Positions 2,322 through 5,292 of a stretch of 64,000 nucleotides of DNA are shown piece by piece. The notes beneath the pieces are model-generated. The model did no database searches, was not told the DNA's origin, and worked only from the letters and a program-made list of their open reading frames with translations. The position numbers and the translations under genes are program-made. Origin of the DNA: Nonomuraea corallina (lineage in GTDB: Bacteria > Actinomycetota > Actinomycetes > Streptosporangiales > Streptosporangiaceae); contig NZ_JAPNNL010000010.1 of the NCBI RefSeq assembly GCF_027620315.1, forward strand, positions 1 through 64,000, written 5' to 3'. Position 1 is the first letter of the stretch; each line of letters begins with the position of its first letter.

Positions 2322-3290
2322 TCAGTCGCCGCGCCGGGCGCGGGCCCGGCGCTTGCCTTCGTGCATGGCCTGGACGCGGGCGACCGGGATGGTGTGGCCC
2401 TCCTCGACCAGGTCGGCGGGCAGCGACCGCGGCGGAGGCAGGCAGGCGGCCCACGGGTCGCCGTCGCCCAGCAGCCCCGGGGCGGTCCTGATGGTGAAGT
2501 CGCGCGGCGTCACCCGATCCAGCTCGTCCCAGGAGACCGGGAACGAGACCGGCGCGCCCGGCCGGATCCGCGGGCTGTAGGCGGACACCACGGTCGCCCC
2601 GCCGGCCCTGGTCGAGTCCAGGAACACCTTGCCCTGGCGGTCCTCCTTGATGAACGCGGTGGTGGCCAGGGCGGGGTCGAGCCGCTCGGCCCGCGCCGCG
2701 ATGGCGCGGGTGGCCGCGGCCAGGTCGTCCAGGCCCGGCCCGGCCGCCACCGGCACGAACACGTGGACGCCCTTGGCCCCGGAGGTCTTGACCGCCCCGG
2801 CCAGCCCGGCCTGGCCGAGCGCCTCCCTGATCAGCCCGGCGGCCCGGACCACCAGGGAGAAGTCACCGCCCTCCGGCGGGTCGAGGTCGAGCACCAGGTG
2901 CGTGAAGTGGTCGCCGACGAGCAGGGCCGGATGGTATTCGACCGCCCGCTGGTTGGCGAACCACAGGAGCGTGCGCCGGTCGTCGCAGAGCGCGTAGGTC
3001 ACCTGGCGGTGCGACGCCTCCGCCCAGATGGTCACCGTGCGGATCCACGAGGGGGCGTACTTCGGGAGGTTCTTCTGCATGAACGGAGGCTGGCCCGGCC
3101 GCACCCGCATGACCGACAGCGCCCGCCCGCGCAGCGCCGGGAGGATGCGCTCGCGCACCGCGTCGAGGTAGTCGACCAGGTCGCGCTTGGTGGCGTCGGC
3201 CCCGTCGAACAGCGGCTGATCGAGGTTGGTCAGCGCCACCCCGTCGCGCGTCTCATCGCTGGTCACCTCGCCCACGATAACCGGCGGCAC
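2322..3290 (-). CDS. LigD-type polymerase/primase domain protein (NHEJ)
   Basis: A 322-residue stand-alone polymerase domain related to the LigD PolDom, the primase-polymerase that fills and joins ends in bacterial Ku-dependent non-homologous end joining. The catalytic metal motif LDLDPPEG is at about residues 134-141, preceded by the KNLPKYAPSW segment and followed by the TSGAKGVHVF block that binds the 5'-phosphate and nucleotide. No ligase or phosphoesterase domain is fused, the usual arrangement in Actinobacteria, where these domains are often separate genes. No Ku gene lies next to it. GTG start at 3290. Confidence 0.9.
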   Translation of the reverse strand: MPPVIVGEVTSDETRDGVALTNLDQPLFDGADATKRDLVDYLDAVRERILPALRGRALSVMRVRPGQPPFMQKNLPKYAPSWIRTVTIWAEASHRQVTYALCDDRRTLLWFANQRAVEYHPALLVGDHFTHLVLDLDPPEGGDFSLVVRAAGLIREALGQAGLAGAVKTSGAKGVHVFVPVAAGPGLDDLAAATRAIAARAERLDPALATTAFIKEDRQGKVFLDSTRAGGATVVSAYSPRIRPGAPVSFPVSWDELDRVTPRDFTIRTAPGLLGDGDPWAACLPPPRSLPADLVEEGHTIPVARVQAMHEGKRRARARRGD

Positions 3291-3323: not shown

Positions 3324-3749
3324 TCAGTCCTTGATCCGCAGTCCCATGGACCTGGCCGTACCTGCCACGATCTTGACCGCCTGGTCCAGGTCGTCGGTGT
3401 TGAGGTCGGGCAGCTTGGCCTCGGCCACCTGCGGGAGCTGGGCCGTGGTGACGACGCCGCCGCTGTGGTGGCCGGGCCGGGGGCTGCCGCCGCTCAGCCC
3501 GGTCACCTGACGGATGAGCGAGGCCGTGGTGGGCTGCTTGACCGTGATGTCGAAGGCCCGGTCCTCGTAGACCGTGACCACGGCGGGCACCACGTGGCCG
3601 CGCCTGCCGGAGGTCAGCTCGTTGTACTGCTTGCAGAACTGCATGAGGTTGATGCCGAGCGGCCCGAGGTCCTTGCCGACGGTCGCCGGGCCGGCCTCGC
3701 CCGCGTTGAGGTGCATGGTGACGACCCTGGTCACCTTCTTCTTCGCCAT
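3324..3749 (-). CDS. Divergent paralog of ribosomal protein L11
   Basis: A 141-residue protein colinear with ribosomal L11: an N-terminal domain with INLMQFCKQYN, a middle VTVYEDRAFDITVKQP strand, and a C-terminal GTARSMGLRIKD end. It stands alone, away from the rplK-rplA block. The N-terminal loop that contacts 23S rRNA and thiopeptide antibiotics is changed: the canonical PPVGP segment reads ATVGK with a one-residue deletion, so prolines 22, 23 and 26 (E. coli numbering) become Ala, Thr and Lys. Its start is ~7 nt after a -10 element with no Shine-Dalgarno sequence, indicating a leaderless mRNA. It is transcribed divergently from a MerR gene whose operator lies in its promoter. An antibiotic-tolerance role is inference. 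Bacillus thiocillin producers use variant L11 copies for immunity, which is established. Confidence 0.9.
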   Translation of the reverse strand: MAKKKVTRVVTMHLNAGEAGPATVGKDLGPLGINLMQFCKQYNELTSGRRGHVVPAVVTVYEDRAFDITVKQPTTASLIRQVTGLSGGSPRPGHHSGGVVTTAQLPQVAEAKLPDLNTDDLDQAVKIVAGTARSMGLRIKD

Positions 3750-3756
3750 GCGGGCT

Positions 3757-3787
3757 AAGCTAAAGTCTCCTGTAACTGGAGACTCAA
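3757..3787 (-). promoter_or_regulatory. MerR-type promoter of the L11 paralog with 19-bp spacer and dyad operator
   Basis: Read on the minus strand: -35 TTGAGT (3782-3787), a 19-bp spacer, then -10 TAGCTT (3757-3762). Within the spacer lies a perfect dyad AGTCTCC-N7-GGAGACT (3764-3784). The over-long 19-bp spacer with a central dyad is the hallmark of promoters activated by DNA distortion by MerR-family proteins. The adjacent MerR gene starts three bases beyond the dyad, so it is probably autoregulated from the same site. Confidence 0.8.
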
Positions 3788-4702
3788 ATGAATTATTCGA
3801 TCGGCAAGCTGGCCGAGCTGACCGGCCTGACCGTCAAGACGATCCGGTTCTACTCCGACGAGGGCGTGCTGCCCGCCCCCGACCGCACCCCGGCGGGCTA
3901 CCGCCGCTACACCGACGAGCACCGCGTCCACCTGGAGCTGATCCGCACCCTGCGGGAGATGGGCGTCGACCTGGCCACGATCCGCTCGCTGGACAGGCGC
4001 GGGCTCAAGGACGTGCTCGCCCTCCATCTGCGGGCGGTGGAGACCCAGCTCACCGCGCTGCAGCGGACCCGCGCCGTGCTGCGCGCCACGCTCGCCAAGG
4101 ACGACCCGGGCGACGACGACCTGCGCCGGCTGCACACGCTGGGCCGGCTGGGCGCGAGCGAGATGGGCATGCTGCTGGACACGTTCATCGACGACGTGAG
4201 CGGCGCCCCGGCCCAGCGCGAGTGGCTGCTCGGCATGCGCGCGTGCATGGCCCCCGAGCTGCCCGAGGACCCCACGGCCGCCCAGCTCGACGCGTGGCTG
4301 GAGCTGCTGGACCTGCTGTCCGACGACGGCTTCCGGCGCAACCTGCGGGAGGCATCGGCGGACTTCTGGGCCCGACCGTACGCCCAGGAGACCTGGGAGC
4401 GGCAGAACGCCGCCCTGGCGCAGGAGGCGCTGCGCGCGGTGGAGGCGGGGACGCCGCCCGGCGCGCCCGAGGCGGTCCCGCCGCTCGAACGCGTCCTCGT
4501 CCTCATGGGCGGCGACCGCGACGCGATCCTGCGCGCCTTCGACGAGCACGATCCGCGCGGCGCCCGCTACTGGGAGCTGGTGGCGATCGTCCGAGGGCTG
4601 GAGCCGGGGCCGTCGCCGATGGCCGTCGCGTACGACTGGATCCACCGCGCGCTGCGCGCGCACCCTGAACTTTCCCCAAAGGCGGCGCGTACCTCTGGAT
4701 GA
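3788..4702 (+). CDS. MerR-family transcriptional regulator with long helical effector domain
   Basis: A 304-residue regulator. Residues 1-70 are a winged MerR DNA-binding domain (YSIGKLAELTGLTVKTIRFY, then the GYRRY wing). Residues ~75-115 form the dimerisation coiled coil. The remaining ~190 residues are predicted helical with many Asp/Glu/Leu and no convincing match to a named ligand domain. It lacks an obvious TipA-S domain and has a single cysteine there. ATG at 3788 comes directly after the dyad operator, so its mRNA is probably leaderless. Divergent from the L11 paralog, which is its likely target, and overlapping the DUF305 gene frame at the 3' end. The inducing ligand is unknown. Confidence 0.85.
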   Translation: MNYSIGKLAELTGLTVKTIRFYSDEGVLPAPDRTPAGYRRYTDEHRVHLELIRTLREMGVDLATIRSLDRRGLKDVLALHLRAVETQLTALQRTRAVLRATLAKDDPGDDDLRRLHTLGRLGASEMGMLLDTFIDDVSGAPAQREWLLGMRACMAPELPEDPTAAQLDAWLELLDLLSDDGFRRNLREASADFWARPYAQETWERQNAALAQEALRAVEAGTPPGAPEAVPPLERVLVLMGGDRDAILRAFDEHDPRGARYWELVAIVRGLEPGPSPMAVAYDWIHRALRAHPELSPKAARTSG

Positions 4703-4722
4703 TCGAGCTTCACCGAGGGGAG

Positions 4723-5292
4723 ATGGTGCGGGTGCGGACCCGCCTGCTGATCGCCGCCCTGGCTCTGTGCGTGCCCGCGTCGGCCGCGTGCGCGCCCGCC
4801 ACCGGGGAGCCCGTGCCCGCCGCCGCGGCGCGGGACGCCGCGTACGGGGAGGCCGACATCCGGTTCGCCCAGGAGATGATCCCGCACCACCGGCAGACCA
4901 TCCGGCTCGCCGAGCTGGCCGAGGGCAGGGCGCACAACCTGTACGTGCAGGAGCTCGGCAGGAAGCTGATCCCCGTCGAACAGGCCGACATCGACACGCT
5001 GGCGACCTGGCTGCGCGGATGGAGGCGGCAGGTGCCGCCCGACGACGCGAAGGCGGCCCATGCCATGCCCGGCATGGTGTCCGCCGAGCAGCTCGGCGTG
5101 CTGGAAGGGCTGTCGGGCGCGGCGTTCGACGAGTCGTGGCTGCCGGTGCTGTCCAGGCACCTGGCCTCCGGCGTCGAGATGGCCGAGACGGTGCTCGCGC
5201 GGGGCAGCCACCGGCCGACCCTGCGGCTGGCCAAGGAGATGATCGTCAACCAGCGGGCCACCATCGCGGAGATAGCCGAGCTGCTTGCCTGA
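4723..5292 (+). CDS. DUF305 exported (lipo)protein
   Basis: About 189 residues, preceded by GAGGGGAG, which favours the ATG at 4723 over an upstream in-frame ATG at 4699. The N-terminus is a signal peptide (charged VRVRTR, hydrophobic LLIAALALCV) ending in SAAC, a plausible though atypical lipobox. Two DUF305 repeats follow, each with the diagnostic acidic/histidine pattern: FAQEMIPHHRQTI and the later LAKEMIVNQRATI. DUF305 proteins are ferritin-like four-helix proteins, often with copper-linked genes; the HAMPGM stretch fits metal binding. Functional role here is not shown by context. It ends before a strong hairpin. Confidence 0.8.
   Translation: MVRVRTRLLIAALALCVPASAACAPATGEPVPAAAARDAAYGEADIRFAQEMIPHHRQTIRLAELAEGRAHNLYVQELGRKLIPVEQADIDTLATWLRGWRRQVPPDDAKAAHAMPGMVSAEQLGVLEGLSGAAFDESWLPVLSRHLASGVEMAETVLARGSHRPTLRLAKEMIVNQRATIAEIAELLA

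Follow-up and report, generated by a model that had tools for sequence, protein, structure and literature searches.

Prolines 22 and 26 of ribosomal protein L11 are the stacking partners of thiazoles 6 and 14 of thiostrepton (PMC8183687), and P22S, P23L and G25V are reported resistance changes in the L11 of Bacillus megaterium (quoted in PMC9769715). Previous descriptions of resistance through an alternative L11 concern producers in which the gene for it sits inside a thiopeptide cluster. The L11 paralogs concerned are TclQ and TclT of the micrococcin P1 and thiocillin clusters, known from pBac115, a Staphylococcus hominis plasmid and Bacillus cereus ATCC 14579; the L11 copies of the Bacillus thiocillin cluster, to which a preliminary description of the locus discussed here had appealed as a precedent for immunity, are indeed in print (PMC10704990). 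TclQ is credited with strong resistance, and Staphylococcus aureus with TclQ but without the micrococcin structural gene shows a micrococcin P1 MIC of >100 ug/mL (PMC9927498). According to PMC10704990, an interaction of TclQ itself with 23S rRNA had yet to be established, so that its entry into the ribosome would likewise be an assumption. The micrococcin cluster is also reported to include tclU, a putative MerR-family gene (PMC12724294). A second pertinent system is TipA, in which thiopeptides are bound by TipAS and which activates its own gene, while TipA products also neutralise the drug (PMC7762955); the role of TipA itself has been described as not deeply understood (PMC2893106).

The locus that we analysed belongs to a 64,000-nucleotide stretch of Nonomuraea corallina DNA (contig NZ_JAPNNL010000010.1, positions 1 to 64,000 of the forward strand), hereafter the window. 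An open reading frame at 3324..3749 on the minus strand, complete and with an ATG start, encodes a variant of ribosomal protein L11 of 141 amino acids, denoted here L11b, in agreement with the preliminary description of a second L11 in this interval. The protein is matched by the Pfam families Ribosomal_L11_N (E = 9e-19) and Ribosomal_L11 (E = 2.1e-18), each above its cut-off, and by the NCBIfam model TIGR01632 (147.2 bits, cut-off 141.85), and thus, by profile comparison, appears to possess both the N-terminal and the RNA-binding domains of uL11 above the curated cut-off. Its identity to the host's housekeeping L11 is 46%. When the AlphaFold2 model of L11b (mean pLDDT 90.2) was compared with known structures by Foldseek, experimentally solved chains of L11 came out on top (rank 1, TM 0.85/0.86), and the L11 fold is predicted to be kept. 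Orthologs of L11b, with 58-100% identity, were detected in 29 genomes of a 297-genome draw from the order and, together with one from outside the draw (G038), make up the 30 orthologs considered below. Across six ortholog pairs, dN/dS was 0.08 to 0.18, pN/pS between L11b of the window and five relatives was 0.29 to 0.42, and 32 of the 43 positions that are invariant in 57 reference L11s, including G131-T132-A133-R134 and M136-G137, remain unchanged in 27 or more of the 30 orthologs. Judged from these sequence comparisons, the second L11 is under purifying selection.

The claim of a second L11 presupposed a canonical rplK elsewhere in the genome. A profile search of the host assembly yielded exactly two L11_N matches, L11b and G000:C323:4851-5024, and the housekeeping L11 on the latter contig (L001:1273-1713, G000:C323) is flanked by nusG-like and rplA-like open reading frames, named from their translations; the candidate interpretation of L11b as the sole rplK is ruled out by this normal rplK on C323. 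By contrast, the PPVGP segment that the preliminary description took as its baseline is not borne out locally. The host housekeeping L11 reads PPVGT, as do all 54 housekeeping L11s of the family, with P22 present and T26 in every one of them, and a DNA pattern for PPVGTALG was found in 290 of the 297 genomes drawn from the order. Thus, the housekeeping protein itself lacks the second contact proline, and only one of the two was left to lose. Since T26, a change of the kind to which the resistance of TclQ is attributed, is already in place in the housekeeping L11, cells without L11b may be partly resistant. With TclQ's threonine already the housekeeping residue at position 26, it may be worth testing the family as a whole for natural tolerance of thiopeptides.

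In L11b, the contact segment consists of the codons P21-A22-(P22 missing)-T23-V24-G25-K26-D27 (3669..3689, minus strand), with the gap given in E. coli numbering, so that PA-TVGKD aligns with PAPPVGTA of the housekeeping L11 from the same genome. P22 (E. coli numbering) is deleted in all 30 orthologs, that of the window included; all 30 likewise have lysine at position 26 and aspartate at position 27, and position 23 is occupied by T, N, S or A. The alteration of the contact segment with a one-residue deletion, as originally proposed, therefore extends to the entire ortholog set, and its conservation in all 30 proteins, combined with the low dN/dS, indicates that the altered segment is not due to chance. 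Position 88 in E. coli numbering, which we take to be equivalent to Lys89 of Mycobacterium tuberculosis L11, is a lysine in 54 of the 54 housekeeping L11s versus three of the 30 L11b proteins. In one nosiheptide-resistant isolate of M. tuberculosis, Lys89 of L11 is replaced with threonine (PMC9769715). Other changes in L11b are P75T and those in the 92-97 loop, and these may affect ribosome binding.

Divergently from L11b, with the two starts 38 bp apart on opposite strands, a gene on the plus strand (3788..4702) encodes a 304-amino acid MerR-family regulator (Pfam MerR_1, E = 3.4e-18), which, by this match, is assigned a MerR helix-turn-helix (HTH) domain. The predicted layout is an HTH domain at residues ~3-68, a dimerisation helix at ~73-102 and an all-helical effector domain at ~109-291 (AlphaFold2 model: mean pLDDT 83.9, pTM 0.60). 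A MerR match adjoins L11b in 29 of the 30 carriers, about full-length in 27, in two frames in L053 and as a fragment in L073; in the thirtieth carrier (G166), the contig with L11b also contains a close MerR match (E = 4e-148), at a distance of ~21 kb. Apart from MerR and antisense artefacts, the neighbours grouped by ORF clustering, which is crude and leaves most groups unannotated, are shared by at most 10 of the 30 loci. In the window, a DUF305/CopM-like gene (4699-5292, plus strand), which did not come out as a shared neighbour, has its first 4 bases in common with the end of merR, and a gene for a stand-alone LigD-type primase-polymerase domain (2322-3290, minus strand) is located downstream of L11b.

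Profile-profile comparison of the regulator with ten TipAS-domain proteins of related genomes produced a partial alignment, at 92.3% over 74 columns, that involves residues 172-243 of the effector domain (4301..4516, plus strand); none of 100 column-shuffled controls exceeded 3.4%, and reversing the alignment gave 0.7%. When the three TipAS subgroups were taken separately, the values were 91.3%, 30.4% and 0.2%, that is, the similarity is strong against one subgroup only. The Pfam TipAS family (PF07739) weakly matches 11 of 22 regulator orthologs, all under the cut-off of 23.8 bits, the best at 23.7 bits (E = 7e-5), and in six of the ten orthologs listed singly the match falls within residues 193-273. 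The window's own regulator has no match to this family at E 1 and hence does not attain its gathering score, and a match is likewise absent in 11 of the 22 orthologs. In PDB fold searches with the whole regulator, the matches were taken up by the HTH domain. As we read these comparisons, the effector domain is probably, in part, a distant relative of TipAS. Domains of the TipAS class bind other drugs too, as exemplified by AlbA, in which such a domain binds albicidin, so that the ligand of the regulator is not fixed. TipAS proteins of the TipAL type were not found in the two carrier genomes searched for them, namely, the window's own and G246.

Given that the compounds sensed by MerR effector domains are many, and that the domain described here is only distantly TipAS-like, L11b could conceivably be an L11 for stress conditions, one that adjusts the GTPase-associated centre or stringent signalling, with weaker RelA activation and altered EF-G use; the regulator would then sense some other molecule, and insensitivity to thiopeptides would be a by-product. 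The deletion and K26 could bear on contacts with factors in addition to those with the drug, and mutations of L11 are known to give the relaxed (relC) phenotype, which counts in favour of such a role. We nevertheless consider this scenario unlikely, albeit deserving of attention, because the clade-wide change sits on the drug-stacking prolines, the resistance-linked lysine is lost as well in 27 of the 30 proteins and, as far as the crude clustering goes, no neighbour is as widely shared as MerR.

Promoters controlled by MerR proteins are typified by spacers of 19-20 bp with palindromes (PMC9909328), and the region upstream of L11b, as predicted from its sequence, conforms to this pattern. The predicted L11b promoter (3757..3787, minus strand) consists of a -35 element TTGAGT (3787-3782) and a -10 element TAGCTT (3762-3757) that are separated by a 19-bp spacer, and across the spacer, between the two elements, extends an operator-like near-palindrome, AGTCTCC-AGTTACA-GGAGACT (3764..3784), in which 9 of 10 pairs are complementary. 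The -10 element ends 7 nt ahead of the ATG, so the mRNA is likely to be leaderless or nearly leaderless. A TTG-type -35 element, a spacer of exactly 19 bp and a -10 element of the form TA...T are present in all 30 orthologs, with a distance between the -10 element and the start codon that is mostly 7 nt and ranges from 4 to 16. In all 30, the 21-mer of the spacer region contains 8 to 10 of the 10 possible dyad pairs, compared to a mean of 2.6 in shuffled 21-mers, of which 0.05% reach 8 or more; perfect palindrome arms of at least 6 bp are found in 16 of the 30. In each of seven carriers, out of the 30, that were searched genome-wide with up to 3 mismatches allowed, there is one site, the one at L11b, which suggests that the switch is a dedicated one.

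Within the genus Nonomuraea, a full-length L11b ortholog is encoded in 12 of 54 genomes, including that of the window. When the species-genome collection was scanned for two segments conserved in L11b, an approach that reaches only relatives in which both are kept, 26 loci came up. Named records account for 23 of these and represent nine genera, from Nonomuraea to Spongiactinospora, with 56-94% identity; by our placement, these genera sit in or near the Streptosporangiaceae. The other three are an actinobacterial metagenome-assembled genome (73%), a short Nonomuraea remnant and an archaeal match (32%). None of the L11-matching records of mobile elements (78 plasmid and 19 phage records) reaches 60% identity, and a mobile origin, which we also considered, was rejected for want of a mobile copy in this set. 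L11 genes are annotated on plasmid records of Clostridioides difficile, Serratia and Pseudomonas (H20-H30, H36, H37) and in the Microcystis phage MaAM05 (H43); some of these plasmid and phage records may be assembly artefacts.

Partial, apparently decayed copies of L11b (L066, L067, L068 and L069) are present in three Nonomuraea genomes (G001, G045 and G046), one of which, G045, also encodes an intact L11b. L11b thus seems sometimes to decay, and the remnants suggest that it has done so repeatedly. Such remnants, along with the 46% identity to the housekeeping protein, would fit an L11b that stays out of ribosomes, either as a drifting duplicate or in a non-ribosomal role. This we regard as highly improbable in view of the low dN/dS, the retention of most of the invariant L11 positions, the predicted L11 fold, and the conservation of both promoter and regulator.

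The variant L11s are not limited to L11b. Eight more genomes of the 297-genome draw encode a second L11 of another clade (class II: L063-L065, L198, L199 and L203-L205), in which the contact segment, read by eye in five cases, is also one residue shorter and has a lysine at position 26. The -35/19 bp/-10 layout precedes all eight class II genes, with no counterpart at spacers of 16, 17, 18, 20, 21 or 22 bp, and appeared in 5 of 8000 shuffled upstream regions. A divergent MerR gene, with a product ~35% identical to the regulator of the window, lies beside two of the eight, and in the flanks read none was found for the other six; in particular, the flanking 5 kb of the three Nonomuraea genes (L063-L065) contain no MerR match; elsewhere, G021 and G029 have a MerR-like match, but at E 1e-15 G037 has none. 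The regulators beside the two class II genes were scanned and showed no Pfam TipAS match. A draw of 396 genomes from the phylum, queried with class II, gave a single match at the strict limit of E 1e-38, namely, L206 from another actinobacterial family (779-1204), with the deletion and a glutamine at position 26. Divergent from it is a MerR gene (1254-2168) whose product is 44% identical to that of the window; by eye, its promoter also has a spacer of 19 bp, but the -10 element departs from the TA...T form and the automated layout search did not report this promoter. In the phylogenetic tree, the 39 actinobacterial variants fall on one side of a branch that leaves TclQ outside, with support of 100/99 when all columns are used and of 93/86, under the starred level, when the segment (loop) columns are removed. 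A single origin of these variants is thus likely although not proven.

Given the TclQ precedent and the presence of TIGR03891, a cluster marker that is not specific to thiopeptides, in 39 of the 54 Nonomuraea genomes, L11b might be a producer's self-immunity gene that is left over from a thiopeptide cluster or acts together with one elsewhere. The data make this improbable. The genome of the window has neither a TIGR03891 match nor the N-terminal domain of TsnR-type methylases (PF04705), a domain that is found in one of the 54 genomes of the genus, a non-carrier. The marker is present in 9 of 12 carriers and in 30 of 42 non-carriers within the genus (Fisher p = 1), and by this measure the proposed link between L11b and thiopeptide clusters was rejected. 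The five neighbouring proteins scanned along with L11b belong to other families and include no thiopeptide biosynthesis enzyme.

On balance, the explanation that we somewhat favour is that L11b and its regulator form an inducible, stand-alone module of thiopeptide resistance by target replacement that functions outside a biosynthetic cluster. The TipAS-like effector domain of the MerR protein would bind a thiopeptide or some compound similar to one, and the protein would distort the long spacer such that RNA polymerase starts transcription of L11b, which would then take the place of the normal L11 in 50S subunits. Loss of the first stacking proline, together with a charged side chain at the position of the second, would presumably prevent the drug from fitting between the N-terminal domain of L11 and helices 43/44 of 23S rRNA. 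If L11b were made only on demand, the cell would not pay for an altered GTPase centre at other times. Two legs of this mechanism draw, by analogy, on precedent, namely, the changes at P22, P23 and G25 and the resistance of the TclQ strains. Protection from thiopeptides, which the preliminary description had put forward, accordingly survives in part, as the best-supported reading, and is strengthened by the divergent MerR gene, the distant TipAS resemblance, the MerR-type promoter and the clade-wide loss of both prolines. The form in which it was stated does not, inasmuch as the local PPVGT left only one proline to lose and, unlike the case of TclQ, there is no cluster marker in the genome.

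Whether the actinobacterial clade of putatively drug-insensitive L11s, with promoters of the MerR type with 19-bp spacers and often a TipAS-like sensor, represents a dedicated ribosome-remodelling switch whose carriers need not make the drug appears to us an evenly balanced question. If it does, it would offer a clear-cut example of a core ribosomal protein that is exchanged on demand, environmental bacteria would constitute an inducible resistance reservoir for a drug class of current interest, and the TipAS-like sensor would gain a clear resistance target. The conserved operator makes the idea of a switch directly testable with a reporter, and the clade offers natural L11 variants for probing the proline segment in translation and stringent signalling. 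No paper on the L11b/merR pair was recognised among the literature matches listed, with subscription papers lying mostly outside that set.

How does this locus compare with the known systems? The TsnR/NshR-type 23S rRNA methylases guard the same site of the ribosome and, unlike L11b, act by RNA methylation. TclQ, like L11b, is an additional L11, and its contact segment, which is altered in L11b as well, is reported to be changed. However, TclQ of two plasmids has an undeleted PPVGT, lies beside thiopeptide genes and falls outside the variant clade, whereas L11b combines the deletion with the lysine, belongs to a genome without the cluster marker, is not seen within a thiopeptide biosynthetic cluster and has its own regulator and promoter; the sequences do not indicate that L11b and TclQ descend from an ancestor that housekeeping L11 does not share. 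As proposed for L11b, the WblC/WhiB7 response changes ribosome-associated proteins in a regulated manner when translation inhibitors cause stress (PMC7157823, the main text of which nowhere contains the term L11), the difference being that WblC/WhiB7 is a global regulator. A parallel on the regulatory side is TipA (TipAL/TipAS) of Streptomyces, a thiopeptide-induced activator; like TipA, the regulator described here joins a MerR HTH domain to an effector domain, which in our case shows a partial and distant similarity to TipAS. In contrast to TipA, which activates its own gene, the site that we found serves the gene for the drug target.
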